Part shown: positions 1,472 through 57,035 of the stretch, in pieces | Layout of the letters: every line of letters begins with the position of its first letter | Position numbering within the stretch: position 1 is the first letter of the stretch | Origin: Thiomicrorhabdus sp. Milos-T2 | GTDB taxonomy: Bacteria; Pseudomonadota; Gammaproteobacteria; Thiomicrospirales; Thiomicrospiraceae | Length of the DNA stretch: 64,000 bases | NCBI RefSeq assembly: GCF_000702325.1 | Contig: NZ_KL370892.1 | Coordinates: 124,001 to 188,000, forward strand | Direction of reading: 5' to 3' | Notes under the pieces: model-generated | Told to the model about the DNA's origin: nothing | Databases searched by the model: none | Seen by the model: the letters and a program-made list of their open reading frames with translations, nothing else | Translations under genes and position numbers: made by a program

Positions 1472-2851
1472 TTAGAAAGGAAGCTTTAAATTTGAATCGA
1501 CTGCGAGAATTTTTTCACGAAATAAGGCTTTAATTCGATCCAAAGCGGCTTGGGTTTCCCCTTCAAATCGTAAGGTCACAATGGGTGAGGTATTGGATGG
1601 GCGAATCAAACCCCATCCATCTGCAAAATCGACCCGCAAACCATCTAAATCAAACACCTTGCCTTCTGTAAATTGGGTTAGTTCTTTAAACTTATTAAAA
1701 AATTGGTAATGCTCGCCTTCTGCAAAAGGCATGTCGAGTTCTGGGGTGTTGATGCCATTGGGTAAAGTTGCAAACAGATCGGCGGCTGTTTGCTCTGATT
1801 TCGCGACTATTTCACACATACGCGCACCCGTATAGATTCCGTCATCAAAACCAAACCAGCGCTCTTTCCAGAAAATGTGCCCTGAAACTTCACCCCCTAA
1901 AACGGCACCTGTTTCACGCATTTTGGCTTTCATAAAAGAGTGGCCAGTTTTCCAGATAGTGGCTTTACCACCAGCTTGCTCAATGATTTTTGGTAATAAA
2001 GAGGTGCATTTAATGTCATAGATAATTTCACCGCCAGGCTCGCGAGATAGCACATCTTGCGCATACAACATTAACTGACGATCGGCATAGAGACTGTTAC
2101 CGCTATTATCGACAATTCCACAGCGATCGCCGTCTCCATCAAAGGCGATGCCTAAATCAGCGCCCTCTTCTTTAACCGCCGCCACTAAATCAGCTAGATT
2201 TTGGGGTTTGGCTGGATCTGAATGATGATTTGGGAAGGTGCCATCAATGTCACAAAATAATTCAATCACTTCACAGCCCATGGCGCGAAACACAGCTACA
2301 CCGAAAGGACCCGCGACCCCATTGCCGCCATCCACCACAATTTTCAAAGTTTTGGCAAGTCGAATATCATTGACAATGTATGATTGATAAGCCTGAAAGA
2401 TATCCTGTTCAATGACCGAACCCGATCCTTCAGAAAAGTCATTGTCTTGAATACGTTTGAGGAGATTTTGGATGTAGTCGCCATATAAAGTGATGCCGTC
2501 CACCACCATTTTTATGCCATTGTAATTCGATGGGTTATGCGATCCGGTAATCACTACACAGGAGTTAACCCCCTCTAAAGTCGCCGCGGCAAAATAAGCC
2601 ATGGGCGTCGGTACCTGGCCAATATCAACTACATTAACACCAGTAGAGATTAACCCCGCAATCATGCGGTCACGAAAACGTGGCCCGGATAACCGACCAT
2701 CGCGCGCCAACACAATTTTGTCTTGCCCTGTTGCCAGAAGTGCAGAACCTAAAGCCTTACCAACCAGCTCGACGGTTTCTTCGGTCAAGACATCATCGAC
2801 GACACCTCGAATGTCGTACATACGGAAAATACTTTCAACTACCTGTGTCAT
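1472..2851 (-). CDS. algC: Phosphomannomutase/phosphoglucomutase (AlgC/ManB type)
   Basis: An alpha-D-phosphohexomutase of 459 residues that interconverts hexose-6- and hexose-1-phosphates for sugar-nucleotide synthesis. The catalytic phosphoserine loop TGSHNPSNYNG sits near residue 104, the metal loop DGDGDR near 235, the sugar-binding GEVSGH near 320, and the phosphate-binding SNTSP is near the C-terminus. The start at 2851 (MTQVVESIFRMYDIRG) fits the family. The open frame extends to 2962 but would then overlap the upstream kinase gene. It is the last gene of the operon of phospho-transfer proteins, so its product may feed or be modified by them. Confidence 0.9.
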   Translation of the reverse strand: MTQVVESIFRMYDIRGVVDDVLTEETVELVGKALGSALLATGQDKIVLARDGRLSGPRFRDRMIAGLISTGVNVVDIGQVPTPMAYFAAATLEGVNSCVVITGSHNPSNYNGIKMVVDGITLYGDYIQNLLKRIQDNDFSEGSGSVIEQDIFQAYQSYIVNDIRLAKTLKIVVDGGNGVAGPFGVAVFRAMGCEVIELFCDIDGTFPNHHSDPAKPQNLADLVAAVKEEGADLGIAFDGDGDRCGIVDNSGNSLYADRQLMLYAQDVLSREPGGEIIYDIKCTSLLPKIIEQAGGKATIWKTGHSFMKAKMRETGAVLGGEVSGHIFWKERWFGFDDGIYTGARMCEIVAKSEQTAADLFATLPNGINTPELDMPFAEGEHYQFFNKFKELTQFTEGKVFDLDGLRVDFADGWGLIRPSNTSPIVTLRFEGETQAALDRIKALFREKILAVDSNLKLPF

Positions 2852-2933
2852 GGCAAGCCTTTTTAATAATAATGTGCAAAACATCAAAAGGGAAGCTTTA
2901 CACCCTAGGTGTTCATTAATTGAAGCGGCAGTA

Positions 2934-4055
2934 TTAAACTTTTTCCAGTTGCTTGAGCACAAGCTGGCTGGCTTCGTGAAAATCGATTTTACCGGTTAAT
3001 TCCCAACATGGAATGTCTCCCAATTTTTGAAAATAAGGGGCTGTTTCTAGTTTTTCTTCCAGCGCCTGCTCAAAGGATAAAAAACGGCCATCCGCATCTG
3101 CATAAAAAGGCCCAGGGCTTTTTATAATTGCCGCCAATAATTCAGGAGAGTCTTTCAAAGTGGTTTGACGAAGAGCCGTTGCTTGTTCGCTATTCCCTTG
3201 CCAATTTAAGACGACCAATGCAGATAATTGTGCTTCAGGCTTATAGCAGTTAGAACCATAAATTTCATTCACATCTGCATCGAATTTATGTTCAAGTTGA
3301 CGAAGTGCCTCTTGCGGCATCGCCAAATAGTCTTGTTTTTGCTGTTCAGAAATTAAACCATGCAATCTTGGATTATGAACGATGGTTCCAGGATTAATAC
3401 GAGGGTGTTTTGGAATACCGCGCATCACCACTTGACTGTTTTGGGTTTCAAAGACCAAGCGATCATTGCTGATAAAATGCTCTCCCATCTCCATTAAATG
3501 CAGCATCAAAGTCGATTTCCCACCGCCAGAAAGCCCTGCGATTGCAAGCCCTTTTCCTTGAATTTCTAAAGCGGCACAATGACCCAACAACCAACCTTGT
3601 CTTAGGTGATGATTTAGAGATTGTGTCAAGATAAAGTTAATCACTTGATTTGGGTGCGCCTCAACCGGTCCGATGCACAATGGCACGTCTGAATGCTGCC
3701 AAAGCAACATACCCGTTTTCACTTTATAAACAAAACGACCCAATGGCGATTCGAGGATTGCGTCTTTTCGGCCAGATTTACTCAATGGACGAGGCCAGTT
3801 TGCCCAATCCTTGCCAACCAAATTAAATTCATCCGATTCGATTGCTTGTATCCTGCAATCAGGGTCTTGGGTATGGGTCACAACATTTTTAAAATAGCGC
3901 TTAAGTTCAGTTAGAAGAATAGCGGAATTCGTCTGTATTTCAAAAACCTGATCTGCTAAGGTTAAAAATAATGAGGACGATTGCCAGACAGTATTGCCTC
4001 TTGTGGCCTCTAGCTGTGAGGTGAGTTGCTGAGTTGAATTCATTGTTGATTTCAT
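2934..4055 (-). CDS. HprK-related kinase B (GAK neighbourhood)
   Basis: A 373-residue P-loop protein related to the HPr kinase/phosphorylase fold. The Walker A motif GLSGGGKST lies at residues 174-182 after the core strand LEIQGKGLAIA, followed by a conserved SNDRL at 196-200, the HprK-like position for a metal or base residue. It lacks the N-terminal domain of true HprK. I recall this family as HprK-related kinase B, found next to a particular ATP-grasp enzyme in the GAK gene neighbourhood. Its start overlaps the ATP-grasp stop by four bases (ATGA), which indicates translational coupling. The phosphorylated partner is unknown; no PTS HPr is encoded nearby. Confidence 0.82.
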   Translation of the reverse strand: MKSTMNSTQQLTSQLEATRGNTVWQSSSLFLTLADQVFEIQTNSAILLTELKRYFKNVVTHTQDPDCRIQAIESDEFNLVGKDWANWPRPLSKSGRKDAILESPLGRFVYKVKTGMLLWQHSDVPLCIGPVEAHPNQVINFILTQSLNHHLRQGWLLGHCAALEIQGKGLAIAGLSGGGKSTLMLHLMEMGEHFISNDRLVFETQNSQVVMRGIPKHPRINPGTIVHNPRLHGLISEQQKQDYLAMPQEALRQLEHKFDADVNEIYGSNCYKPEAQLSALVVLNWQGNSEQATALRQTTLKDSPELLAAIIKSPGPFYADADGRFLSFEQALEEKLETAPYFQKLGDIPCWELTGKIDFHEASQLVLKQLEKV

Positions 4056-4951
4056 TGTTTATTCGCACTGAGTTGTTGAATAACAAAATCTGCATAGGCG
4101 GTTGCCATATCCAGTCCTAAGCCTTCCTTTGCACCTTTAAAACCACCAAAAGCGGAAACCTCAAAACAAACGGCACCCTCTTCGGTTTCTGCAATATCAA
4201 CAGTGGTATAGGTCAAATCAAATTGCGCTTGTGCTTGGCGAGCCATTTCAATGATTTCTTCTGACGGTTCGGCTTTGGCATACTTACCCCCATCTTGAAT
4301 CGTCGTATTCCAGCTATTCCCATTGGCAACTCGGGCATAAGCGCCTTTATATTCACCATTTAAGAAAACCAGCCCCATGTCTTGCCCAGGCAAATTAAGT
4401 TTTTGTTGTATATAGAAAAACCCATGTTGTTGGTAATACTGCTCTAATTTTTTTTTCAACTTATGTTCGCTCAAAGAGTCATCTAATACCAACATGCCGC
4501 GTGCTTTCGTTGAAAACAAAGGTTTGAGCACCACAGTGCCAAATTTTTGCACCGCCTCATATGCCTGGCCAAGATTTTCGGTAATCATTGTTGGCGGCAT
4601 AGGTATATTGCCCTTAGCCAAGGAAACGGTACAACTCATTCGGTCAACCAAGCGAATAATTTCAGAAGGTTTGGAATAGATTTTGACACCGCATTTTTCA
4701 ACAAAGCGTAAAATTTCTAACCGGTTAATCACCGTTGGACTGTACTCTTGCGAAATTTTCTTAATAATAATGCCGTCCAGCTGGCATAGGCTATGGTTTT
4801 TATACATGACATCTGGCGTGGCTAAGTCAGCAACCACCTGCTGAATATCAATCACTAAACGAAACCCTGTTTTTGCTTCAATGGCGTCTGCGAGGACTTC
4901 GGTGGACCATTTACCAGGTATGCCGACAACGGCAATTTTTAAATCAGTCAT
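4052..4951 (-). CDS. GAK-system ATP-grasp enzyme
   Basis: About 299 residues beginning MTDLKIAVVGIPGKWSTEVL. ATP-grasp signatures include VVLKPLFSTKARGMLVL, the basic segment and the glutamate-rich strand YTTVDIAETEEGAVCFEVSA, in the place of the metal-binding acidic residues. ATP-grasp enzymes join a carboxylate to an amine or thiol through an acyl-phosphate; the substrates are unknown here. I chose 4951 because AAAGGAAA precedes it at good spacing; the frame is open to 5017 but that would overlap the upstream gene further. It overlaps the preceding kinase stop by eight bases. The N-terminal VVGIPGxWS block is typical of the GAK ATP-grasp family. Confidence 0.85.
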   Translation of the reverse strand: MTDLKIAVVGIPGKWSTEVLADAIEAKTGFRLVIDIQQVVADLATPDVMYKNHSLCQLDGIIIKKISQEYSPTVINRLEILRFVEKCGVKIYSKPSEIIRLVDRMSCTVSLAKGNIPMPPTMITENLGQAYEAVQKFGTVVLKPLFSTKARGMLVLDDSLSEHKLKKKLEQYYQQHGFFYIQQKLNLPGQDMGLVFLNGEYKGAYARVANGNSWNTTIQDGGKYAKAEPSEEIIEMARQAQAQFDLTYTTVDIAETEEGAVCFEVSAFGGFKGAKEGLGLDMATAYADFVIQQLSANKQ

Positions 4952-6587
4952 GGAAAATTTCCTTTGGAATTTCATATTTTTTTCTGTTGGCCTTATCAAG
5001 CTGTATGACCTGCTCAATTAAATAGCGACCTTTAAAATGCATAGATTTTGCATGTTCTTTATCAAAAACAAAGCGTGTTGAGGTAATAAAAGACCGTCCT
5101 AAACCGAGCGCCATGCGAAGACTGTAATCTTCATCTTGAATTTTTTCTGCATAACTTTGACCAAAATCGTAAATGGCTTCCATAGCCAACCTGATTAACT
5201 GGCGCACATCAGGATCAAAATTGGTCATACGATAAAATGAAACCATTAATACCGATAAATCTTGCACATAATCTAAGTACTCAGAACGATGAAGGTCAAT
5301 AAAACTGATATGTTGTTGCACCGAATCATAGAGAATATTATCGGTATTAAAATCTCCATGAATATAAACGGCTTGCGGCACCTTTAGCTTACGTTCTACC
5401 TTGGCTGCCTGTTTAACCAGTTTTTCTAATGTGGCCTGTTTCATATCCCCAATTTGAAGACCCTTGAGGTTAAAATCAGGATGCACCTTATAAATATTTT
5501 TCAGGCGTTTTTCTAATTGCTGCATATAATTTGCTGGATGAATTTCATCAATACGGGTTTGTTGCCAAATATCTTCCAAGGTAACGAATAGGGTTTTCAA
5601 ACCTGCCTTGAGGGGTTTACGCTCTTTTTGCAACAACAGCTTGTCAAAAGTTTTTCCCGTCAGGTATTCAAATAAAAGAGCGGCTTTATCTCCGGTCTTT
5701 TGGTAAGAATAGACTTCTGGTGCGATGCCTGGAAATTTCTTATTCCAGCTATCAATCCCTTTCTTTTCTTCTAGCAATTTTTGTTTTTTACCTTCTTTAA
5801 AAATTGCCAGAATTTCCCCTTCGGTTTCTTTGGAAGAACGTACACCAGAAATAGTACAACCCGATTTGGTTTCGCCCATAGAATGAATTCTGAGGTCGGG
5901 CAAAGAAATATCCTGTTTTAAATCATTAATGCTTGCCTCAAGGGCATGATAGCGGTCTATTTGAATAAACTGCCCGAGATTAGCCGAAATAATGCCTTCT
6001 CCAACGCGTAAAAGTGCATCACCCATAATGTCGATATCTTTTAGAATAAAACTGGCCTTAAGCAATGCATCGGTTTGTTGTCCGGTACGCAGTTGTTTTT
6101 TGTATTTTTCAATCTGCAGCTGGCAGGCCTGGTGAATTCTATTTTGCAAACGGCAAATATCGATTGATAAACCAAGACTGTCGGAATCAATTGCAGGCAG
6201 AACCAATGACAGACCTTTACTTAAGTCCGAAAATGCAGAAAATACATTATGTTTATGCAGGAGATTTGAACCGCAGATTTTTTTAAGCTGAACAGCCATA
6301 TCAAACAATTGCTTAGCAAGTGCCTTAAGAGCATGCCCCACATGTTCATAAGATTGAACAATCAGTTGTGATTCACGAGAAGAATCATGCATTAAGCTTT
6401 GATATTCATGGCGAGCTCTTTGCAGTAAATTGAGATGGGCGATATCGATATAGTCCATCAAATTTAGACTTTTTTCGATAAAAGCTGGATCCTGGTGGTC
6501 CAGTGCATCTTCAATATTTTGCAGCTGTTTTTGAACGTCAAGCAATAGAAATTGCAATGATTCATACAGAGAAGACATTATTTTCAT
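4944..6587 (-). CDS. Two-domain protein: helical N-terminus plus APH-like phosphotransferase
   Basis: A 547-residue protein. Residues 1 to about 230 are predicted all-helical, with heptad-like spacing and no motif I recognise. Residues from about 245 to the end form an aminoglycoside-phosphotransferase/choline-kinase-like domain: the Brenner motif HGDFNTDNILYD begins near residue 410 and the metal-binding SFIDLHR near 428. It probably phosphorylates a small molecule or protein, not necessarily an antibiotic. A second possible start lies at 6578; neither has a strong ribosome site. It sits between the amphi-Trp gene and the ATP-grasp gene. The helical domain might be a binding or dimerisation module. 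Confidence 0.75.
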   Translation of the reverse strand: MKIMSSLYESLQFLLLDVQKQLQNIEDALDHQDPAFIEKSLNLMDYIDIAHLNLLQRARHEYQSLMHDSSRESQLIVQSYEHVGHALKALAKQLFDMAVQLKKICGSNLLHKHNVFSAFSDLSKGLSLVLPAIDSDSLGLSIDICRLQNRIHQACQLQIEKYKKQLRTGQQTDALLKASFILKDIDIMGDALLRVGEGIISANLGQFIQIDRYHALEASINDLKQDISLPDLRIHSMGETKSGCTISGVRSSKETEGEILAIFKEGKKQKLLEEKKGIDSWNKKFPGIAPEVYSYQKTGDKAALLFEYLTGKTFDKLLLQKERKPLKAGLKTLFVTLEDIWQQTRIDEIHPANYMQQLEKRLKNIYKVHPDFNLKGLQIGDMKQATLEKLVKQAAKVERKLKVPQAVYIHGDFNTDNILYDSVQQHISFIDLHRSEYLDYVQDLSVLMVSFYRMTNFDPDVRQLIRLAMEAIYDFGQSYAEKIQDEDYSLRMALGLGRSFITSTRFVFDKEHAKSMHFKGRYLIEQVIQLDKANRKKYEIPKEIFHD

Positions 6588-6596
6588 CTGAATGCT

Positions 6597-6890
6597 TTAA
6601 TCGCTTTGTTTGTTTTTTTTCGGTTTGATAAATAAGGGCGAATTGTCAGAAGAGTCTTGCTCATCAGAAAGCCAACTTAATTTAATTCGTAAGCTTTGTT
6701 CTTTTTTGCTTTGACTGGCTCGAATGCGTAAACGACTAATTTTATTAGGGCGAAGTAGCAAAGACTCTTCGTCATCAGAAAATAAGACCTCGCCTTTTTC
6801 TATTCCTTTTGTCAGGGCTTTTAAATAGCTGACAATGGCTTCTTTATCCTGTAAGGATTCATGTTCAAAGTTATTTGTGTGTTTTGTCAT
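6597..6890 (-). CDS. amphi-Trp domain protein
   Basis: A small basic protein of 97 residues. The pattern fits the amphi-Trp domain: an N-terminal helix with KEAIVSYLKALTKGIEKGEV, then alternating strands ending in LRIKLSW with the conserved tryptophan. Small proteins of this family are found in the same neighbourhoods as HprK-related kinase B and the GAK ATP-grasp enzyme; the function is unknown. I chose the ATG at 6890, five bases after AGAGG, over the upstream GTG at 6896. The C-terminal tail is Ser/Lys-rich and probably disordered. It could be a carrier or phospho-acceptor for the kinases around it, which is inference. Confidence 0.72.
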   Translation of the reverse strand: MTKHTNNFEHESLQDKEAIVSYLKALTKGIEKGEVLFSDDEESLLLRPNKISRLRIRASQSKKEQSLRIKLSWLSDEQDSSDNSPLFIKPKKNKQSD

Positions 6891-6936
6891 ATACACCTCT
6901 TGACTGAAGCATTGTCGTTACGATTCAAAAATCGTC

Positions 6937-8157
6937 CTATGCACTAATCATTTCTGGATGGAATTGTTTCGGATGGCTAAGTTCGCTGCACAGAGCAGAA
7001 ACTATCCCGTTTATGCTGAATATTGTAACAGCTTCACCTGGCGTGTTCATTTGAGATTGTTTGCGGCAATTAGCGTTCAGCTGAGTGTCGCATTCAAAAT
7101 TCAGTAACCCCTGGCGGACAAAAAGCTGCTGACCGTTTAAATGACTTCGGTGACCATTCACCAATGCAAATATTCTTTGTGATTTCAGTATGCGACTGCC
7201 CACTTCTGTGAGTGGAAAATCTTTTTCTCGATACTTAGTTCGGAAAACATTACCGTAGGCACTGTAATACATTTGAAAAATTAAGCCCTTCGACATGGCA
7301 TGTTTAAAATCCATATTGAGTTTTTCCACGCCTTGTTCCAAAATTTGTTCGGCGATATGATCGTCAAGCCCTGCATGACTAAACAGATAACTGCCGCTGC
7401 GGTGCATTAAAACCAATTCGCGGAAGAACCAATTAAACTCGCCACCCTCGTCGATAAAAAGTTGTTTCGCTTTATGTGCGGCTTGATAGACTTGGTTGAG
7501 TTCTAATCCAAAATCAGCACAGGCCTTTAACAGGTCAACATTTTTGTGTTTAATCTGACGGATTTCTTTGTCAATCTGGGATGGGGTCATAAAATCTGCA
7601 GCATATTCGGGGAACCGTTCAAACCAATCGTCTTGAGGCATGAGTTCTTTGAGAATGGTGCTTTCAGTTAAAGTCGGCGTTGGCTCATTTAAGCAATAGG
7701 TTTCATAAACTTCTGCCAGAAAGGAAGCCACTTTTCTGCCCATACGAACAAAAAAATGGGACTGACGCAAATCATCCATAAAATTAAGGGCCAGCAGTCC
7801 AGCATAAACTCGAATATCGTGATTACCCGCTAATAAAACCAAATCGACTTGTTGTTGCTTTAACTGGTGTAACAGATGAAAAAGCTGTAAGTTACTTGGC
7901 CCTTTATCAAAACAATCGCCACCAATCATAATTTGCCCTTGCAAACCTTTATCGGTTAACTGGATTTCTTCCAGACTGCTCTCTTCTGTCACAAGTTGGC
8001 TCAATTTTAAAGAACGCAAAAAGGCTTCCGCATCGGCATGTAAATCGCAGAAAAAATAGGTTTCTTTATCCGGCATCAACCAGGCATTTGATGGAAATTG
8101 AACCGGATTTTCCGGCTGCCATGCATGGGTAATTTGAGAGGTAAATGGCTTAGTCAT
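6937..8157 (-). CDS. Calcineurin-like metallophosphoesterase
   Basis: A 406-residue PPP-type phosphatase. The metal-binding blocks are in family order: CDLHAD near residue 37, GGDCFDKG near 79, LLAGNHDIR near 108, then late histidine blocks FSHAGLDDH and VNGHRSHLNG. This is the usual DxH, GDxxDRG-like, GNHD and GH arrangement, with Lys in place of Arg in the second block. It should hydrolyse a phosphomonoester or diphosphate; the substrate is unknown. The start has an AAGGAG site. As the second gene of the operon, it could reverse a phosphorylation made by the kinases downstream. Confidence 0.85.
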   Translation of the reverse strand: MTKPFTSQITHAWQPENPVQFPSNAWLMPDKETYFFCDLHADAEAFLRSLKLSQLVTEESSLEEIQLTDKGLQGQIMIGGDCFDKGPSNLQLFHLLHQLKQQQVDLVLLAGNHDIRVYAGLLALNFMDDLRQSHFFVRMGRKVASFLAEVYETYCLNEPTPTLTESTILKELMPQDDWFERFPEYAADFMTPSQIDKEIRQIKHKNVDLLKACADFGLELNQVYQAAHKAKQLFIDEGGEFNWFFRELVLMHRSGSYLFSHAGLDDHIAEQILEQGVEKLNMDFKHAMSKGLIFQMYYSAYGNVFRTKYREKDFPLTEVGSRILKSQRIFALVNGHRSHLNGQQLFVRQGLLNFECDTQLNANCRKQSQMNTPGEAVTIFSINGIVSALCSELSHPKQFHPEMISA

Positions 8158-8169
8158 TTTATAGACTCC

Positions 8170-8889
8170 TTAATCTATCATGAGTTCAGTTTTATCAACA
8201 GCGCGCACTTTCCATTCGCCATGTATTTTGACAAAAGACCTGTCCGGTTGATTTTTAGCTTCGGTATATTCAAAAAAAAGTGGGGCAGCGTGATACATGG
8301 AATATTTAGCAATGTCTTCAAACTCTAATATCCCTAATAGATAAGCCGCATGACGAAAAGAGGCGCCATGCCCAACGACAATCATCAGCGTGTTCTTTTT
8401 AACAGACTTTCTCAGTTTCACACATTCTTTGCGAATAAACTTGGCCAAACGCTCGCCTGAGTCCATCAACGATTCTGCACCATCAAATGGCAAGCAGTAA
8501 TAAGAATCTGATTTCCAATTAAAGTCCGGACATTCGTAGCGCGGATCTTCTTTCAACAATCCTTCAATTTCAGTAACAGTCAAATTAGCCACTGCACCCA
8601 CAGAACGCTCATTAAGCTGTGAACTCGTCTCAATATCAAAGTCGTAATTTATATTTTCTTTGATAATTTTAGCTGTCTGCCAAGCTCGTAATAAATTGGA
8701 GGAATGAATCGCAGAATGTATCTTTAAGTTATGAGCTTCAGCAAATTGTTCAATAATCTTTGCCGTGGCTACAGATTGTTGCTGACCTTTATCCGTTAAA
8801 CCAAAAGGTTGGAAGGCACTCGGTGTTTTTGGTTTTTGTTGATATTCGCCATGACGGACAAAAACGAGGGTAATGGTTGGGATATTCAT
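8170..8889 (-). CDS. Histidine phosphatase (phosphoglycerate mutase/SixA superfamily)
   Basis: A 239-residue cytoplasmic protein. The phospho-accepting RHG motif is at the N-terminus (LVFVRHGEYQ), and the second catalytic histidine appears as VVGHGASFRHAAYLLG at about residues 168-185. NERSVG and LTDKG are also typical of the superfamily. It is the first gene of the seven-gene operon, 12 bases before the metallophosphatase, giving two unrelated phosphatases and two kinase-type genes in one transcript. SixA-like phosphohistidine phosphatases fit a phospho-relay idea, but a small-molecule phosphatase is equally possible. The ribosome site is weak. Confidence 0.83.
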   Translation of the reverse strand: MNIPTITLVFVRHGEYQQKPKTPSAFQPFGLTDKGQQQSVATAKIIEQFAEAHNLKIHSAIHSSNLLRAWQTAKIIKENINYDFDIETSSQLNERSVGAVANLTVTEIEGLLKEDPRYECPDFNWKSDSYYCLPFDGAESLMDSGERLAKFIRKECVKLRKSVKKNTLMIVVGHGASFRHAAYLLGILEFEDIAKYSMYHAAPLFFEYTEAKNQPDRSFVKIHGEWKVRAVDKTELMID

Positions 8890-9023
8890 AAACGAAATCT
8901 TAGAGCAAAGACGTGGGATAAATATGACAGTTTAATGAAAGCAAAAGCAGTCGGTTGTCATAGCATCTTAAGAACGCGTAGAAACAGATCATGCTTCACT
9001 GTTTTGATTTAATCCTACTATTG

Positions 9024-9360: not shown

Positions 9361-9669
9361 ATGGCTATTCAATTGTCTTCAAAACAACAAAATAAGGCAC
9401 TAATTAAACAAACTGCACACAAACAAAATTCAAAAGCTAAGGTTGTAAATTTTGTAGCAAAAGAAGTAAACATGATGCCCGCTCAATGGAAACGTCAAGG
9501 AAATCCTACGCCATATGAATTAAGCACCACTATTGCAACCTGTAAAAGATTATGGCACATGAACAAAGAAGCCTTAAATCACCCAGAGTGTAATAAAGAA
9601 AAGACTCAAGAAAATATCAAAACACTCGAAAGGCTTTATCTCATGTTGATGGATTATTTGGTGGCATAA
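9361..9669 (+). CDS. Small basic protein of unknown function
   Basis: 102 residues, rich in Lys, Gln and Asn, with no signal peptide or membrane segment. The N-terminal 35 residues look disordered and basic; the rest is predicted helical (YELSTTIATCKRLWHMNK and ENIKTLERLYLMLMDYL). An AAGAGG ribosome site precedes the ATG. I do not recognise the family. It is a single-gene unit between the MITE and a truncated iron-sulfur gene. Confidence 0.55.
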   Translation: MAIQLSSKQQNKALIKQTAHKQNSKAKVVNFVAKEVNMMPAQWKRQGNPTPYELSTTIATCKRLWHMNKEALNHPECNKEKTQENIKTLERLYLMLMDYLVA

Positions 9670-17422: not shown

Positions 17423-17617
17423 GAGACCTTTGCACGAGAGTATGCACGAGTAAAAATGGTTAAAATTCACCTGATTTTTGTTGAAAACCTTGCGAATAGC
17501 TAGCTATTCCCTGCGCTTTCCGTCGCAAACGAAGAACTCGACGCCCGAAGGGGTAAGTCGAGAATCGGGCAAATTTTCCCTCATTTTTCTTTCGCACCTA
17601 TCTCGTGCAAAGGTCTC
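17423..17617. mobile_element. MITE-like element, 195 bp, type B
   Basis: Terminal inverted repeats GAGACCTTTGCACGAGA and TCTCGTGCAAAGGTCTC are flanked by the direct repeat ACTTT (17418-17422 and 17618-17622). A central palindrome GAATAGCTAGCTATTC is present. The interior is shared with 44363-44546 but carries an extra inverted segment around CGACGCCCGAAGG. It ends about 28 bases before the start of the PhnD-like gene, so it may have changed that gene's promoter. Confidence 0.88.
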
Positions 17618-17645
17618 ACTTTATGAATGTGCTAGGGGCTATAAA

Positions 17646-18518
17646 TTGAAAAAACAAACTTTTCGATTACTACTTTTAATAGCGTCAATACTACTTTTAA
17701 CCGCATGCCAAAATGAAGAACCTACTGCACAAGAGGCTAATCCAATTGAAGAAAATAACGTGCTTGTATTGGCCGTATTGCCTTATGATGTGCCCACCAA
17801 AATTCAACGCCATTTTGCCCCTTTATTAACTTTTTTATCTAAATCATTAAACCGTCCAGTAAAGCTTTATGTCGCTACAAGTTATGAAGAGCAAATTTTA
17901 AAAATTGTAAGAGGGCAAGTAGATTTAGCCTATTTAGGGCCTTCAAGCTTTGTACGAGCTTATGACCGATTTGAATCAGCTAAGGGTAATAAAATTCAAC
18001 CTATCGCTACTGAAATTCCTTATGAAGCAGCCATTGTCGTTCGTAAAGATAGCCCTATTAAAAATATCTCTGATTTAAAAAATCACACTATTGCTTTTGG
18101 CGCGTACCAATCTTTTGCTGGGCATTTTAAAATTCGAGACTCATTAAAGAAAAATGGGGTAAGTCTATCTGACTTAAAGCTATACAGCTTTTTAGGACGG
18201 CACGAACGGGCAATTATGTCGGTTGTTTATGGTGAGTTTGATGCTGCGGCAGCTTCTTCAGGCATTGTGAGACGAATAAAAGGGTTAAACTACTCAATTA
18301 AAACTATTTACAGTACTGATGAGTTGCCACCCATTATGATTGCAGCTTCGCCATACATGCCAAAAGAGTGGGTATCAAAGCTAAAAAATAGTTTTCTCAA
18401 TCCAAGTTTTGAAGGCCAAGAGGCCATAACTATGTTTGCCCCCGGCGGAACCTTTTTACCTTTTAATAACCAAGCTTATGAGCCTGTTAGACAAATAATG
18501 AAGATTTATGAACAATAA
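17646..18518 (+). CDS. PhnD-like substrate-binding lipoprotein
   Basis: A periplasmic lipoprotein of about 290 residues. The lipobox LLLTAC is at residues 20-25. The rest is a phosphate/phosphite/phosphonate-type binding fold: VLAVLPYDVPTKIQRHFAPL, then YLGPSSFVRAYD, AIVVRKDSPIKNISDLKNHT and GAYQSFAGH. I chose the TTG at 17646, seven bases after AGGGG; the open frame runs upstream into the MITE and cannot be the real start. No ABC permease or ATPase lies nearby, so it may be an orphan receptor, perhaps sensing for a kinase. The ligand is unknown. Confidence 0.82.
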   Translation: MKKQTFRLLLLIASILLLTACQNEEPTAQEANPIEENNVLVLAVLPYDVPTKIQRHFAPLLTFLSKSLNRPVKLYVATSYEEQILKIVRGQVDLAYLGPSSFVRAYDRFESAKGNKIQPIATEIPYEAAIVVRKDSPIKNISDLKNHTIAFGAYQSFAGHFKIRDSLKKNGVSLSDLKLYSFLGRHERAIMSVVYGEFDAAAASSGIVRRIKGLNYSIKTIYSTDELPPIMIAASPYMPKEWVSKLKNSFLNPSFEGQEAITMFAPGGTFLPFNNQAYEPVRQIMKIYEQ

Positions 18519-25457: not shown

Positions 25458-26729
25458 ACTGCTGTCCCACTTAATTTCTCACCAAGCCTAAACTCATTTG
25501 GGGCCTCACGTTTTCTACATTAGGTGGTGGCTTCAAAAGTTCTATTAACGGCCTTCTAATAAATAGATTCATTTGTAGTAATCTTAAAATCTGCTGAAAA
25601 CTCTTTTTCGATCCTGATTGAAACTTAAGAAAAGCGATAATCAAATAAACACATAATGCGGCCATGAATTTGAGTCATTACCGCATTTTTAGAGTTACCT
25701 AAAAAAGCTTTGATTTTTAGATTTTGTTTGATCCATTTAAAGAAGAGTTCTACCTGCCAACGCTCTTTATATATATCTGCAATTGTCTGAGCTGACCAGT
25801 TCATTTGATTGGTAATAAACTGATAATCTTTTTGCGTGACGGGGTCGTAATAATTCACTAAGCGAATAGCGGGTAAGTTTTCTCTAAGGGATTTCTGTCC
25901 AGTGTATTCAATGATCTGATCAGAAATAATGTTTAAGTTTTTTGTCGTCGGTAACGTTTTTACAACTTTATACTTTGCATTGCCTCGGATTCTTGTTACC
26001 CATACCAACCCTTTTGAACTCAAGGCTTTGTGCCAGCTGAAGTTGTTATAACCTTTGTCAAAAACGAGTACACTTCCCTTTGGAAACTTCCATAAATCAA
26101 CTTGTTTCATTTCAGACTCTTTGGCTCCTGTTAAGGATGCAAAAGCTGGGATAAGGCCATCATGATCAAGTCCAATATGCAGTTTCATGGCTGATTTTTT
26201 CTTATTGTAATCCGCCCATGGAAAAAGCTTCATGGAAAGATCAATAAGAGAACCATCCAACGAGAATAGCTTTGATTTGAATCTGAAATTATGTTTTGGT
26301 GAGTGCTGAGAGCATTGTTTGTAAAGCTTAGAAAACAAGTCAGAATAGAACTGATAATCTAGCTTTTCATTGGCTCGACTGAATGTCGTGCGTTTTATTT
26401 TTTGGCTGCCTAAATGATATTGCTGTTGGGGTTGTGACTCTATTGTGGCTTCAATATCTCGAAGGCTATGGCGTGCACCTATCTGGCCAATCGCCAAGGC
26501 TGCAAATTGAGACCAGCGACTTAAAGCGTCACTTCGTCTTTTCCCATCATGAATGCTTGAAAGCTTTTCAAATTCAAGTCTCGGAAACATTTTTAAGACT
26601 TGTGATAATACTGTATTATGAAAGCTCATAGTCTGAATCCTCTGTTATTACATATGTTTGGTGGTACTTACATTGTAACAATCTGTATGGATTCAGGCTT
26701 TTTCATTTTAGCTAAGTGGGACAGCAGTG
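25457..26729 (-). mobile_element. IS4-type insertion sequence, 1273 bp
   Basis: Terminal inverted repeats CACTGCTGTCCCACTTA (left) and TAAGTGGGACAGCAGTG (right). Direct target duplication GTACTGCCC at 25448-25456 and 26730-26738 (9 bp). It holds one transposase gene on the minus strand, with a frameshift. Length, duplication size and transposase type all fit the IS4 family. The insertion point is in the right arm of a palindromic repeat. Confidence 0.88.
25471..26629 (-). pseudogene. IS4-family transposase, frameshifted near the C-terminus
   Basis: The main frame runs from 26629 to a stop at 25625 (334 residues). The RNase H-like DDE core is visible: LFSLDGSLIDL (first D), GSVLVFDKGYNN (second D), and the Y-(2)-R-(3)-E-(6)-K signature YKERWQVELFFKWIKQ. 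Near 25660 the frame changes: QIHGRIMCLFDYRFS stops, while the next frame reads MAALCVYLIIAFLKFQSGSK and continues to 25471, the expected family end. One missing base explains both. The catalytic core precedes the break, so activity is uncertain; programmed frameshifting is not usual in this family. Confidence 0.82.
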
Positions 26730-40399: not shown

Positions 40400-42154
40400 T
40401 TACCATCGATTAGTTATCCATACGGTTTGATAAGGCGCTAAGGTCATTTCACCATATAAATCAGTAATCATCTGACCACTAATAATTTCTCGCCACTCGT
40501 CCATATCAATTAAGTTTAACTGGGCTAAATTTAGAGTTTGTGATTGATTCGTGACATTATTAACCACAAAAACACTTTGATCACGCATCAAACTTTGGCG
40601 CCAAAATCCAAACAATGTATCCTCTAAATGCAATGTAAATTGGGTTGCATTTGGATGAAATGCCGCTTGTTCTTTACGCAGCGCAATTAAGTGGTTTAAA
40701 CCCTTTAATACCGCATAATGTTTGGAATTTGTATCTTCCAAAAGAGGGGTTAACTCACTCTCTTGCCATTGATGACGATTTATATCTCGATTATGCTCCG
40801 TTTTATGCAAACTTTCATAATCATTTTCGGTTGCAAAAAAAGAATGAATGTAAATCGCTGGCACACCTTCTAAAGCAATCGCAATCGCATGCGCGCATAA
40901 CATGCGTTGTACCTGATATTCATCTTCACCTTCACAAGTCCCTTTAAAGGCATCGATAAGGGCGATATTAATCTCATAAGGATTTTTTTCACCATTTAGT
41001 CCAGTACGCCAAGAAACTTTTGCACCAAAGGATTGTAATACATGAATCATATTTTGCAATTCTTCTGGATCAAGAAGACCTTCGGCAGGACGAACGCCAA
41101 TGCCATCGTGGCTGGCAATAAAGTTTAAATAGGTCGTCCCCATTTGCGCTGGCGGCATAGACATTAACCATGTTTTTAGGTGTTTGGCAGACCCTGTAAG
41201 CAATGAATTAATAAGCAATGGAGGTAATGAGAAGTTATAAACCATATGGGCTTCATTGGCATTACCAAAATAGGTCAAATTCTCACGTTTAGGTACATTC
41301 GTTTCTGTAATGATAATGGCATTAGACAGACGATATTCAATTAAGGCTCGCATTAATTGAATAGCCTGATGTGTCTCTGGCAGATGCATACAACTGGTAC
41401 CAATAATTTTCCATAAAAAACCGATGGCATCTAAGCGGAAAATGCTGGCACCCTTATCTATATACATTGAAATAAGGCGCATAATCTCTAGAAACACCTC
41501 TGGGTTAGAGAAGTTTAAATCTATTTGATCATGACTAAACGTGCACCAAACATACTTTTCGCCTTGCGGGGTCATGGTAGGTCTCAGCAAAGGCGTCGTT
41601 CGTGGTCGTACAACCTTAGACAAGTCATCTTCTAAACTGGCTTGTACAAAATAGTTTTGGTACTTTGGGTTTCCCTTAGTAAATTCTTTAAACCAGGCAT
41701 GTTCACTTGAACAATGGTTTACAACTAAATCCGCCATAATTCGGTAATCTTGGCTAATTTCAGTTACGTCTGACCAATCACCTAAATCGGGATTAATGTT
41801 TTCATAGTCAGAAACGGCAAACCCTCCATCCGAGGTATAAGGATAATATGGCAGAATATGCACCATAGAAACAGTCTCTTTTAAGAACTTATCCAATACC
41901 TTTTTTAAGGTAGCAAGTGGCTGCTCATTAACGTTAACAATGGAATCGCCATAAGTGATAACCATGACATCTTTTTCATTCCAATGAGATTGGTGCGATA
42001 AAGGCATTTCACATTGCGTTTTATCAATCCCGGTTTTTTCAATAAACTGCTCAGCAAGTTCATGGGTATTCTCGCTAGGAAACAGTGATTGAATAAGCGG
42101 CGAAATACGCTCTATTAATGCATCATAAGCTTGTTGAGATGTAATAGTATGCAT
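40400..42154 (-). CDS. GH13 subfamily 18 phosphorylase, probably glucosylglycerate phosphorylase
   Basis: 584 residues. A sucrose-phosphorylase-type GH13 barrel: HILPYYPYTSDGGFAVSDY, ADLVVNHCSSEHAWF, FRLDAIGFLWK with the catalytic Asp, ITETNVP with the general acid Glu, and FIASHDGIGVRP. It transfers glucose from a glucoside to phosphate. Immediately upstream are the genes to make glucosylglycerate, so I infer that compound as substrate, giving glucose-1-phosphate and glycerate. Sucrose phosphorylase is the alternative. The GAGG site starts at 42154 and is 15 bases after gpgS. Confidence 0.85.
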   Translation of the reverse strand: MHTITSQQAYDALIERISPLIQSLFPSENTHELAEQFIEKTGIDKTQCEMPLSHQSHWNEKDVMVITYGDSIVNVNEQPLATLKKVLDKFLKETVSMVHILPYYPYTSDGGFAVSDYENINPDLGDWSDVTEISQDYRIMADLVVNHCSSEHAWFKEFTKGNPKYQNYFVQASLEDDLSKVVRPRTTPLLRPTMTPQGEKYVWCTFSHDQIDLNFSNPEVFLEIMRLISMYIDKGASIFRLDAIGFLWKIIGTSCMHLPETHQAIQLMRALIEYRLSNAIIITETNVPKRENLTYFGNANEAHMVYNFSLPPLLINSLLTGSAKHLKTWLMSMPPAQMGTTYLNFIASHDGIGVRPAEGLLDPEELQNMIHVLQSFGAKVSWRTGLNGEKNPYEINIALIDAFKGTCEGEDEYQVQRMLCAHAIAIALEGVPAIYIHSFFATENDYESLHKTEHNRDINRHQWQESELTPLLEDTNSKHYAVLKGLNHLIALRKEQAAFHPNATQFTLHLEDTLFGFWRQSLMRDQSVFVVNNVTNQSQTLNLAQLNLIDMDEWREIISGQMITDLYGEMTLAPYQTVWITNRW

Positions 42155-42169
42155 GGTAAAACCTCTTAA

Positions 42170-43408
42170 TTATTTCGCTTTATACTCTTCCATATCCGCA
42201 TCTACTGCTGCCGTAATTTCTTGCAATATATCCGGAAAAGCCGATGAAACTCTGTTCCATGAAGGAATAAATGGCGTTTCCATCGGTGCATCTAAAAAGT
42301 GTTTACCGGCTTTAATAATGTTTTCGCAAAACATCTCTACCGCAATTTCTTCCTTATGCACATCAAGGTTTAATCCATTCATCATGGCATCATTGCGATA
42401 AGACTCAATCAAATCTAATGCAATACGGTAATAGGTCGCTTTAAGCGTTCTAAAACCTTCTGTTGTAAACGTCACACCTTCAGCGGCTAATTTACGATAA
42501 AACGCCTTGGCAATATCTATCGACATTTTAGAAAGCCCTTTCTGGGCATCTTCAGCGGATAAGTCTTGATGTTTATGATCATAAATATCAGCAATATCCA
42601 CCTGACATATTCGGTTTGAGCTGATATTACGTTTCATTTCAGAAAGTACACCAATCTCTAAACCCCAATCTGAAGGAATTCGTAAATCTGAAATAACCCC
42701 GGTTCTAAAAGCAAATTCACCCGCTAAAGGGTAACGATAAGAGTCAATGTGATCTAGATACTCACTCGCTCTTTCATTTTGCTCACCTGCTGTTTTTTGG
42801 AGTGCTCTAATGAGTGGAGTAACTAATAAACGGGTTACTCGGCCATTCATTGTGCCGTTAGCAATACGAGTATAAAAACCTTTTGCAAAGGCATAGTTAA
42901 ATTGAGGATTGGCTACCGGATAAATTAGTCGTGCTAATAAGGATCGGTCATAAGTAACAATATCGCAGTCATGTAAGGCAACAGATTCAACCTTATTTGA
43001 ACCCAAAACATAACCGGTCATATACCAAACATTTCGCCCTTTACCGGGTGCTTCTGGTGCAATACCTTCACTTACCAGCTTTTTATGAATGGCTTGCATT
43101 CTTGGACCATCATTCCAAATCACTTTTACGTTTTGTGGTAAGACTGAAAAATACTCCAAGGCATGACGATATTCCGCCTCATTTGCTCTATCCAAGCCCA
43201 CGACAATCTCTTCTAAATAGGGTACCGACTTAAGTTCTTCAACAATGGTTGCCAAAGCAGGAGTTTGCAATTCTGAATACAAACTAGGCAAGATTAAACC
43301 TAGCGGTCGCTGTTTACTGTATTTAAGTAAATCTGCCTCCATCTCTTCAATAGGTCTATCCACTAAATTATGTAAAGTGGTAATAATGCCGTTCTGATAA
43401 AAATCCAT
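42170..43408 (-). CDS. gpgS: Glucosyl-3-phosphoglycerate synthase
   Basis: 412 residues, GT81 family. The N-terminal GILPSLYSEL-like strand is followed by VVGLDRANEAEYRHALEYF, the nucleotide-binding and phosphoglycerate segments (PGKGRNVWYMTGYVLG), and the metal-binding DCDIVTYDR. SDWGLEIGVLSEM carries later donor-site residues. It joins glucose from an NDP-glucose to 3-phosphoglycerate. Followed by phosphatase action this makes glucosylglycerate, a compatible solute of salt and nitrogen stress. GGAG site before the start; gpgP-like gene precedes it. Confidence 0.9.
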   Translation of the reverse strand: MDFYQNGIITTLHNLVDRPIEEMEADLLKYSKQRPLGLILPSLYSELQTPALATIVEELKSVPYLEEIVVGLDRANEAEYRHALEYFSVLPQNVKVIWNDGPRMQAIHKKLVSEGIAPEAPGKGRNVWYMTGYVLGSNKVESVALHDCDIVTYDRSLLARLIYPVANPQFNYAFAKGFYTRIANGTMNGRVTRLLVTPLIRALQKTAGEQNERASEYLDHIDSYRYPLAGEFAFRTGVISDLRIPSDWGLEIGVLSEMKRNISSNRICQVDIADIYDHKHQDLSAEDAQKGLSKMSIDIAKAFYRKLAAEGVTFTTEGFRTLKATYYRIALDLIESYRNDAMMNGLNLDVHKEEIAVEMFCENIIKAGKHFLDAPMETPFIPSWNRVSSAFPDILQEITAAVDADMEEYKAK

Positions 43409-43475
43409 ACTTGCTCCTTCCCATCATTGGGAGTTTAGATATCTTGTGATTCTTAAGTGTTAGTAAATGCCTCTA

Positions 43476-44315
43476 TCAAGCTTCAAGCCAACTTAATACA
43501 GCTTGATTCCAACCTTCTGGACCAAATGCTTTGGTAGTGACCACTTTAGGATGATTCACCTTGGGAGGAGGGTTAACCGGCGAACAAATAATCACCGGAT
43601 AATCACTCGCTTCTAATAACGGAACATCATTATTGCCATCCCCTAAAGCCATGGTTTGCACTTGATCTTGCCAGGCCTGGTGGTAATAATTTGTTAAACA
43701 CTTTAGGGCTAAACCTTTATTACTTAACCCCATTAAATGCACAAATCGCCCCCCTTTAATAACCTGCAAACCACGCTGACTCATAGCCTGACTAAACTCG
43801 GTTAACGCTTGTTCACTGTCTTGCCAGAGCAAAGGTTCTGAAAAATTACGTTGCTTTGCTTTAACTGCACTATTTAGGGGCAACCCTGTAAATTCAACTA
43901 CTTGCTCGGCACTCATCTCTGAAAACCCTATAAAAGATAACTGATGTTGAGTTTTATAGTTTTGTGAAATTTGCAGTATTTGAGGTAATAAAACAGGACT
44001 TAAACTCATGTATTCAAAATCATCACCCCAAGACTGAATAACGGGATTATCAATAACAGAGTTGCGTTTTAATAAATCCTTATTGAGAGAACCTTTATTC
44101 CAAAAAATACCCGCTCCATTTTCAACAATAAATGGGTAAGAATTCGCTAACTCGGCTTTAAGATCAATAACCTCAGCTGCAGTTTTACTGGTGGTTAATA
44201 GCCATGGAATAGCTTGAGCATTTAAGGCCTTTATTGCAGGCAGTGCTGGCGTATAACTGTAATCATGGTGATCGAGTAACGAGCCATCTAAATCCGTAAA
44301 TATTATTTTTTTCAC
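43476..44315 (-). CDS. gpgP: HAD phosphatase, glucosyl/mannosyl-3-phosphoglycerate phosphatase type
   Basis: 279 residues. The HAD motif I is FTDLDGSLLDHHDY, motif II LLTTSKT, and motif III/IV ALGDGNNDVPLLEASDYPVII; the family cap has VENGAGIFWN. It removes the phosphate from glucosyl-3-phosphoglycerate. The start is GTG at 44315, after AGGA; an overlapping ATG leads to an immediate stop. First gene of the minus-strand run. Confidence 0.88.
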   Translation of the reverse strand: MKKIIFTDLDGSLLDHHDYSYTPALPAIKALNAQAIPWLLTTSKTAAEVIDLKAELANSYPFIVENGAGIFWNKGSLNKDLLKRNSVIDNPVIQSWGDDFEYMSLSPVLLPQILQISQNYKTQHQLSFIGFSEMSAEQVVEFTGLPLNSAVKAKQRNFSEPLLWQDSEQALTEFSQAMSQRGLQVIKGGRFVHLMGLSNKGLALKCLTNYYHQAWQDQVQTMALGDGNNDVPLLEASDYPVIICSPVNPPPKVNHPKVVTTKAFGPEGWNQAVLSWLEA

Positions 44316-56023: not shown

Positions 56024-56093
56024 CGCTTAAAAGAGGCTTTTTTACATTGATTGAATCTTGCAAATACTTTCAAAAACATCACGCTGGAAACCC

Positions 56094-57035
56094 ATGAAAC
56101 AATCTATGCAAAATCAAATCGAACACGTTATTGAACAAAGCGTAAATTGGAAAAGTAAAAATACCGAAAGCATCGATATCGAAAGGGTTGAGGGAACCCT
56201 ATCGCCCAATAAATTTAAAACGCAGTTATGTGCTCAACTTCAACCCTTTGAGCAAAGCATTGTAAACTTATCAACCGGCTATGCATGTGGTTTTGAAATT
56301 GAGTTTTTTCTAAATCCCAGCAGGTTATCCGATCTTCAAAAAGAGATTGCAGACATCTTGCCTGATTATCAGATGCTGTTAATTTTTTTAGATGAAGTTC
56401 CCAAAACGAATCATCGTCACTTTTACCTTATTAAAGAAAAGACAGGCCAACCCCCAGAAGGCATGCAGAGCTTTGAATTAGTTAGCCCCATCATTGATTA
56501 CAAAAGCCTACCCTATTTTATAAATACTTTTTTTACTCTACTCAATAAATACGGCGCAACAGACAATGATAGCATTGGCTTTCATTTGCACGTTTCGACT
56601 CAAAGCCCTTCAAAAATTTCCCCTATTTCATTGTTATATTTTTTAGATCAGCAAGAGGTTTTAAACGCCAAAGAGCGTCAATACACTCGAAATATTATTG
56701 AGCAGTTTTTTAGCTATTCCGCTCATGATTGGCAGTGGATTTTTGAAGAAGTCACTCGCAAATGTTACAACGTTAACTTTTTACATTACCACCATAATAA
56801 TCACATTGAACTGCGCTCTATGGGCGGAGCAGGCTATCTAAAAAATAATAAAGAGATTCTCTTAAACTGTTTTCAATGCTTGTTAGCCTATGAAAGAGCT
56901 TTAAATACCCCCATCGCAACCATTGCTCAAGGAATTTTAGAAAAATATGCCTTAGACAAGCAGGTGATACAAACTAAAAACTTAAGTTACCAAGCCTTAA
57001 AAGAGTCAGATGATAACCATATATGGTTTGTTTAG
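56094..57035 (+). CDS. Amidoligase-like (COOH-NH2 ligase) protein
   Basis: 313 residues, cytoplasmic. GYACGFEIEFFL, ELVSPII, IGFHLHVST and HIELRSMGG match the glutamine-synthetase-fold metal- and nucleotide-binding positions of the amidoligase family (Amidoligase_2). Such enzymes form amide bonds between a carboxylate and an amine with ATP. It lies between ovoA (70 bases before) and the ovoB candidate (93 bases after), in one direction, suggesting that it modifies an ovothiol-pathway compound. I chose the ATG at 56094; the frame is open from a TTG at 56058. No such step is known to me in the pathway. Confidence 0.75.
   Translation: MKQSMQNQIEHVIEQSVNWKSKNTESIDIERVEGTLSPNKFKTQLCAQLQPFEQSIVNLSTGYACGFEIEFFLNPSRLSDLQKEIADILPDYQMLLIFLDEVPKTNHRHFYLIKEKTGQPPEGMQSFELVSPIIDYKSLPYFINTFFTLLNKYGATDNDSIGFHLHVSTQSPSKISPISLLYFLDQQEVLNAKERQYTRNIIEQFFSYSAHDWQWIFEEVTRKCYNVNFLHYHHNNHIELRSMGGAGYLKNNKEILLNCFQCLLAYERALNTPIATIAQGILEKYALDKQVIQTKNLSYQALKESDDNHIWFV

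Follow-up and report, generated by a model that had tools for sequence, protein, structure and literature searches.

The 64-kb stretch of DNA analyzed here (contig NZ_KL370892.1, positions 124,001 to 188,000; hereafter the window) lies within the 2.66 Mb, two-contig genome of Thiomicrorhabdus sp. Milos-T2 and contains an operon for a GAK system, a set of protein families which, as a first-pass annotation of the locus had noted, have no known function: their NCBIfam names carry none. The genes of the window suggest a sulfur-oxidising autotroph of the Thiomicrospira group. We see about an even chance that six genes of the operon, encoding two phosphatases, an amphi-Trp protein, two kinases and an ATP-grasp ligase, make up the GAK system and are expressed, as a Pho regulon operon, under phosphate starvation. 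One of the kinases is fused to a PhoU domain, and a Pho box, the predicted site of PhoB, precedes the first gene. Within the open-access literature searched, both are unreported; we found there no paper naming the GAK system, amphi-Trp or the HprK-related kinase, and, judged by title, none of the papers listed for ATP-grasp, HprK, CHAD or histidine phosphatase together with the Pho regulon deals with this gene set. The fusion and the conserved Pho box give the uncharacterised GAK system a first testable role. If the reading is true, it would describe a bacterial phosphate-stress modification system beyond the Pho regulon as known so far, in which the PhoU domain is built directly into a kinase rather than acting on PhoR.

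Locus layout, PhoU domain and Pho box

Seven minus-strand genes had been annotated at 1472-8889; all seven are open at these coordinates, and profile scans returned the same families. In the order of transcription, the features are:

8924..8941, minus strand: predicted PhoB site (Pho box), CTTTCATTAAACTGTCAT; matches at 13 of 14 repeat positions and starts 52 nt ahead of the HP ATG
8170..8889, minus strand: histidine phosphatase (HP), first gene; PF00300 (His_Phos_1), 67 bits
6937..8157, minus strand: PPP-type metallophosphatase (PPP); PF00149 (Metallophos), 21.3 bits, weak
6597..6890, minus strand: amphi-Trp protein; TIGR04354, 65 bits
4944..6587, minus strand: PhoU-APH fusion kinase, 547 aa; PF01636 (APH), 40.9 bits, cut-off 23.2
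5970..6578, minus strand: PhoU domain of the fusion kinase, residues 4-206; Z 23.7 to 1t72, hhalign E 1.7e-14
4052..4951, minus strand: GAK-type ATP-grasp ligase, RimK/LysX/MptN-like; TIGR04356, 455 bits
2934..4055, minus strand: HprK-related kinase B (HprK-B), last gene of the conserved set; TIGR04355, 304 bits
likely ATG at 2851 (in-frame upstream TTG at 2962), minus strand: phosphohexomutase, seventh gene, 82 nt past the HprK-B stop

The tight coupling proposed for all seven genes holds for six of them. Gaps of 12 nt (HP/PPP), 46 nt (PPP/amphi-Trp) and 9 nt (amphi-Trp/kinase) are followed by two overlaps, one of 8 nt, in which the ATP-grasp ATG overlaps the kinase stop, and one of 4 nt (ATGA) between ATP-grasp and HprK-B; the phosphohexomutase stands apart behind its 82-nt gap. 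A simple promoter and terminator scan gave no signal above chance.

The helical part of the APH-like kinase, which had been taken for a new domain, is a PhoU domain according to its fold, hidden Markov model matches and profile-profile comparison. The structure model (547 residues, 38 sequences, predicted local distance difference test score (pLDDT) of 90.5) shows six long helices ahead of the kinase. Its best structural matches are 1t72, 4q25 and 1t8b, titled PhoU or PhoU-like, with Z scores of 23.7, 23.6 and 23.3, followed at 22.3 by 1sum, titled hypothetical, which we take to be a PhoU; these scores stem from a re-alignment of Foldseek's best 1000 chains, in which unrelated helical bundles may reach about 14 according to the tool's note. 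The PhoU matches span 200-210 residues at a root-mean-square deviation of 1.9-2.2 Å (1t72: 200 residues, 1.9 Å). At E≤0.1, 26 of the 38 family members have a Pfam PhoU match, the best at 9.8e-14; the window kinase taken by itself stays under the Pfam cut-off (15.1 vs 23.5 bits). The program hhalign aligns the family with PhoU at E 1.7e-14. The kinase-family profile also finds stand-alone proteins, in 16 other genomes and as second matches, at E values of about 1e-10 to 1e-13. All four that were scanned are PhoU proteins (107-161 bits), two of them encoded behind a gene that is presumably pstB. Structure matches of the kinase half are to methylthioribose, fructosamine and choline kinases and to aminoglycoside phosphotransferases, and the residues of its HGDxNxDN and DLxR motifs are invariant in 41 of 41 sequences.

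For comparison we collected 56 further loci with a GAK ATP-grasp gene (32 from the same order, 20 from other Pseudomonadota, one Aestuariispira contig and three Rhodobacterales plasmids), giving 57 with the window, several of them cut by contig ends. Pho boxes were scored as matches out of 14 repeat positions (CTGTCAT-N4-CTGT(C/A)A(C/T)), following the published consensus CTGTCAT-A(AT)A(TA)-CTGT(CA)A(CT) (PMC3465305; also PMC4415409). Within the 64 kb of the window, 8924-8941 is the sole site with at most one mismatch, while sites with up to three mismatches are not above chance (4 vs 4.6 expected). Of the 25 operon heads counted from the window's own family, 17 have a sense-strand site of at least 11/14 in the 100 nt before the start, and 16 of these 17 boxes begin 51-73 nt before it. 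Among the controls, this score was reached by 0/219 other genes in the same loci and by 1/109 internal operon genes. Across all loci, one of 529 other genes reached it, namely a CHAD gene (13/14) which itself opens the GAK operon of locus L072. The remaining eight own-family heads were scored within 150 nt, where L050 (13), L042 (11) and L053 (11) reach 11.

The 57 loci comprise 1,007,897 bases and contain, on both strands, five sites of 13/14, all of which head GAK operons: before HP in the window and L059, the kinase in L068, the CHAD gene in L072 and amphi-Trp in L050. The mean number in ten Markov-simulated sequences was 0.1. At lower scores the excess shrinks (at least 12/14: 19 vs 6.6 expected; at least 11/14: 115 vs 74), and five of the 14 sites scoring 12 are GAK heads; only near-perfect sites stand out from chance. 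In genome G024 the operon is split: an HP-PPP pair (L116) lies about 190 kb away from the core, behind a 13/14 box that again starts 52 nt before HP, and the core (L050) likewise has a box of 13/14. Descent alone hardly accounts for boxes before four different head genes and on both parts of a split operon; PhoB control of the GAK operon is predicted from the box.

Composition and distribution of the gene set

The co-occurrence of kinase, ATP-grasp, amphi-Trp, HprK-B and phosphatases was borne out as that of a real GAK set with conserved active-site motifs. ATP-grasp, the selection criterion, is present in all 57 loci, the kinase in 55, amphi-Trp in 52, HprK-B in 51, PPP in 43 and HP in 41. 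Co-occurrence of all seven families had been proposed as a check; six of them recur, each in 41-57 of 57 loci, whereas the phosphohexomutase occurs in 0/56. Two blocks of the set can be swapped: the order HP-PPP-amphi-Trp-kinase-ATP-grasp-HprK-B is found in 19 loci including the window, and distant loci mostly show kinase-ATP-grasp-HprK-B-(extras)-HP-PPP-amphi-Trp.

Among 62 genomes of the order, 33 carry the ATP-grasp gene, 32 over the cut-off plus G050, where it is in two pieces. HprK-B was found in 28, all inside these 33 (the five carriers without it are G016, G017, G018, G019 and G040), and amphi-Trp in 34, i.e., all 33 carriers and G056. The G056 amphi-Trp gene (C1:504601-504801) lies in a genome without an over-cut-off GAK ATP-grasp and without HprK-B, and is perhaps a remnant or has an independent role. 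In L063, the G050 locus, the genes for the kinase and the ATP-grasp enzyme both fall into two reading frames, which suggests decay of the set or a sequencing error. Across 398 genomes of the phylum, ATP-grasp occurs in 14 (13 over the cut-off); it is also plasmid-borne in five records of three Rhodobacterales genera. HprK-B exceeds its cut-off in 14 genomes, of which 13 are ATP-grasp positive and the other, G201, has its copy at a contig start; further HprK-B matches are contig-edge fragments (G094, ATP-grasp positive, and G245) and short 45-bit matches (G176, G362). The full-length PhoU-APH kinase is present in 13, all ATP-grasp positive, and 16 others match its first domain only. Such a patchy, partly plasmid-borne distribution would also suit an anti-phage defence module, an explanation that we regard as very improbable given that none of the six proteins matched a PADLOC model at E≤0.001 and that the phosphate-type promoter site is conserved.

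The smallest set comprises amphi-Trp, kinase and ATP-grasp (L060, L061, L066, and L065 on a short contig), and one genus carries only these three. HprK-B is the next addition after this minimal set, and the phosphatases are frequent but dispensable. A PPP profile search covered 18 genomes, 14 of them GAK-positive, mostly chosen for a missing local PPP, and four GAK-negative. A full-length PPP was found elsewhere in six of the 14 (G024, G052, G054, G055, G059, G060); there was no full-length match in the other eight (G016-G019, G023, G036, G040, G053) or in the four GAK-negative genomes. The G052 and G060 copies are distant (36-37% identity), that of G060 is interrupted by a stop, and neither is preceded by a Pho box.

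The phosphohexomutase had been counted as an operon member and a possible target of the kinases and phosphatases. It does lie 82 nt downstream on the same strand, and a close orthologue (65-68% identity) is present in 7 of 32 genomes of the genus, the window's included, all of them GAK positive. However, it is absent from 56 of 56 other GAK loci (some on short contigs), and 8 of 15 GAK-positive genus members have only distant paralogues of at most 35% identity. Of the six further carriers, four (G023, G024, G046, G047) have it on the GAK contig at a distance of 150-168 kb, and two (G036, G041) on a separate contig; the genes near it there are presumably dut, argB or yajQ. We therefore interpret its position in the window as the result of a rearrangement and dropped the mutase from the set; a circuit directed at it is very improbable. 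A reversible phosphorylation circuit as such is possible, but the set is better described by phosphate starvation because of the PhoU domain in the kinase and the Pho box before the operon.

Core proteins, possible products and mechanism

Active-site residues were assessed in alignments of hand-picked rows, from which near-duplicate, cut and merged frames had been dropped (kinase 41 of 56 rows, then 38; amphi-Trp 30 of 35, then 27; HprK-B 29 of 49; PPP 26 of 41; HP 26 of 40; ATP-grasp 30 of 51 frames). R12, H13, R68, E94 and H174 of HP are invariant (26 sequences); its profile had no match in the PDB at 1e-10. PPP is calcineurin/PPP-like, scores just below the Metallophos cut-off (21.3 vs 21.5 bits), and has invariant D38, H40, D81, D84, N112, H113, D114, H261 and H336 (26 sequences). 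The ATP-grasp ligase scores 455 bits against TIGR04356 (cut-off 300), followed by MptN with 158 and the RimK family with 103; by sequence, its relatives in the PDB are ATP-grasp ligases, among them those of the RimK/LysX type, and 60 positions are invariant in 30 sequences. HprK-B, encoded adjacent to it, scores 304 bits against TIGR04355 (cut-off 200), with H159, the P-loop G177-T182 and N197-D198 invariant in 29 sequences. Hpr_kinase_C was found at E≤0.01 in 13 of 29 family members and reaches 28.5 bits in the window protein, under the Pfam cut-off of 33.3, and the HprK-B profile gave only short P-loop matches in the PDB.

The amphi-Trp protein (65 bits, TIGR04354 cut-off 31) starts with a conserved F-x-H-x-S-L-x-D motif, followed in the model (pLDDT 85) by one helix and four strands. 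Across 30 aligned sequences, H9 and S11 reach a conservation of at least 90%; a motif count gave Ser in 46 and His in 50 of 52, with the pattern mis-anchored on L039, L076 and L078, of which L039 and L076 show both residues in the alignment. Foldseek returned no match to the fold at E≤0.001, the best VIA match had a Z of 2.5, and the best match of the sequence profile, an entry named dIG14, had an E value of 0.004; we do not claim the fold as new.

These residues could make amphi-Trp the center of a protein modification circuit in which the PhoU-APH kinase and/or HprK-B phosphorylate the His or Ser of the motif, HP and PPP erase the mark, ATP-grasp adds amino acids, and phosphate control is secondary. 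We consider this possible, if rather unlikely. It agrees with the presence of amphi-Trp in 33 of 33 ATP-grasp genomes of the order and with the conservation of H9 and S11; moreover, HprK homologues of lasso-peptide clusters phosphorylate the last Ser of a peptide, those of Proteobacteria placing several phosphates on a single residue (PMC8498205). But L062 and L066, from genomes in which no HprK-B was found, retain the Ser, and L067 and L068, both with HprK-B, have Ala in its place. The Ser thus does not track HprK-B, and action of this kinase on it is not supported as the sole cause of its conservation. The kinase half, too, is of the small-molecule type. Acceptors of RimK-type ligases are expected to have a conserved C-terminus, whereas the amphi-Trp C-termini are not conserved in the alignment of 30 sequences.

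Additional genes of other lineages bear on the nature of the product as well. GAK CofD-like genes accompany the set in 6 or 7 of the 57 loci (TIGR04357: 543 bits in L080; 255, under the cut-off, in L085) and were found in 0/62 order genomes, our own included (E≤1e-10). They would fit a pathway, induced by phosphate shortage, that tailors or salvages a small molecule such as a cofactor tail or lipid head group, with amphi-Trp as scaffold. Here, the APH kinase and HprK-B would phosphorylate, ATP-grasp would add an amino acid, a CofD-like protein would transfer a phospho-acid in some lineages, and the phosphatases would trim. This alternative, which we hold to be possible though not probable, is in line with MptN as nearest relative of the ATP-grasp enzyme after its own family (158 bits), with RimK/LysX in the PDB, with the 7 of 57 loci in which a CofD-like gene adjoins the set, and with the matches of the kinase half to methylthioribose, fructosamine and choline kinases. 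On the other hand, the set lacks further dedicated biosynthetic enzymes, the order lacks CofD-like genes, and a PhoU domain together with several phosphatases is in our judgement unusual for a biosynthetic operon.

A SixA-Nudix fusion occurs in 11 loci outside the own family; Pfam confirmed both halves in the one scanned. For the Nudix half of L086, the best match is human diphosphoinositol polyphosphate phosphohydrolase 1 (DIPP1; E 2e-8), followed by Ap4A hydrolases. As the catalytic His of SixA is replaced by Gln (RQG for RHG) in 4 of the 11 proteins (L034, L072, L073, L074), the Nudix half may be the constrained part. Stand-alone Nudix genes were found in 7 loci by clustering or 9 by tblastn; at the window locus, none adjoins the operon. 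The extended GAK loci, with ATP-grasp, histidine phosphatase, DIPP-like Nudix and a tie to phosphate homeostasis, resemble the eukaryotic inositol-pyrophosphate cycle in their list of parts. Its Asp1 kinase is of the ATP-grasp type. In fission yeast, Asp1, with its histidine phosphatase half, and the Nudix enzyme Aps1 set the inositol pyrophosphate that controls phosphate genes (PMC11323792). The GAK system might then be a bacterial, PhoB-controlled counterpart, in which the PhoU-gated kinase and HprK-B write, and DIPP-type Nudix, HP and PPP erase, a phosphoanhydride mark. Such a mark, on the His/Ser tail of amphi-Trp or on an amide-linked metabolite made by ATP-grasp, would report and buffer phosphate. 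We think this reading improbable. The GAK ATP-grasp looks like a ligase and not an inositol kinase, no inositol enzyme was seen, and none of the 12 PDB sequences found by its profile at E≤0.1 is labelled PPIP5K or ITPK (compared by sequence only).

CHAD proteins are encoded in 5 loci (three scanned); the part N-terminal to CHAD, without a Pfam match, is taken for a CYTH domain. CHAD proteins attach to polyphosphate granules (PMC10892726), and CHAD was found in 27 of 62 order genomes (20/33 GAK-positive vs 7/29 GAK-negative). As a required partner, CHAD/polyphosphate was ruled out by the 0/11 count outside two genera given below, which leaves polyphosphate as a lead and not a result.

Under the phosphate-starvation reading, PhoB would bind the box at 8924-8941 when phosphate is scarce and switch the operon on. 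The core would consist of amphi-Trp, a small-molecule-type kinase of the APH/methylthioribose kinase fold and a RimK/MptN-type ATP-grasp ligase, the degenerate PhoU domain being the putative sensing or docking half of the kinase. This core would build a phosphorylated, amide-linked group or attach such a group to amphi-Trp; the candidate acceptor is either amphi-Trp or a metabolite. HprK-B would act as a writer that adds more phosphoryl groups, whereas HP and PPP, elsewhere also the DIPP-like Nudix, are candidate erasers that remove phosphate. We infer that kinases and phosphatases share one product and that the signal runs in this direction; the modification would thereby track phosphate status and give phosphate back to the cell.

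Several observations weigh against this reading. In 38 sequences, the first E/DxxxD metal motif described for PhoU (PMC5686610) lacks a conserved acidic pair, and the second is mixed, its two positions being acidic in 13/38 and 24/38; the degenerate domain may therefore sense something other than PhoU does. The own-family head of L064 scores 10 and the short sets L060, L061, L065 and L066 score 8-9. Outside the family only 3 of 17 heads reach 11 (L067, L068, L087), and of the further loci L072 has a box while L073, L074, L085 and L086 do not reach 11; these counts leave out L079, L082, L083 and L084, whose contigs end at the head. With so many heads under 11, phosphate control is not universal, the box being missing in most distant lineages. 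Related genomes and sequences are, furthermore, not independent events. The CHAD link is uneven, with 14/15 GAK-positive vs 4/17 negative genomes in the own genus (g1), 6/7 vs 3/4 in genus g3 and 0/11 in the GAK-positive genomes of genera beyond these two, and many of the GAK-negative genomes in this count are small and incomplete.

Neighboring genes and known systems

Divergent from the GAK operon lies a 102-aa ORF (9361-9669, plus strand) that matches no family and stayed without a partner when the 57 loci were clustered. Elsewhere in the window, a phosphonate-type periplasmic binding protein is encoded at 17478-18518 (plus strand; 152.6 bits), and a DDE transposase with DUF4372, an insertion element, lies amid unrelated genes at 25625-26629 (minus strand). 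A row at 40400-44315 (minus strand) comprises a GH13 alpha-amylase-type enzyme, a 412-aa protein without Pfam match, which we take to be glucosyl-3-phosphoglycerate synthase-like, and a HAD phosphatase, and is possibly a glucosylglycerate (osmolyte) cassette. At 53873-57035 (plus strand), an FGE-sulfatase/DinB/methyltransferase fusion, presumably an ovothiol or ergothioneine synthase, is encoded immediately upstream of a putative amidoligase (Amidoligase_2, 26.7 bits).

With respect to the GAK system as defined by TIGR04356, TIGR04355, TIGR04354 and TIGR04357, the window ATP-grasp, HprK-B and amphi-Trp proteins exceed the family cut-offs. The window differs in having no CofD-like protein, like all 62 order genomes, and the GAK family names that we saw do not include the PhoU-APH kinase, HP, PPP or the Pho box. 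HprK-B shares the P-loop kinase core (Hpr_kinase_C) with HPr kinase and the lasso-peptide Ser kinases; unlike HPr kinase, it stays under the Pfam cut-off, its N-terminal part has no Pfam match, and the operon has no HPr gene. The ATP-grasp enzyme is related to the RimK, LysX and MptN ligases over its whole length but forms a conserved family of its own. As in the PhoU of pstSCAB-phoU, which in Salmonella contacts the PhoR kinase (PMC9239213), the six-helix fold extends across the full domain (Z 23.7); in contrast, the GAK version is fused to a kinase, has lost the first metal motif and does not lie beside pst.

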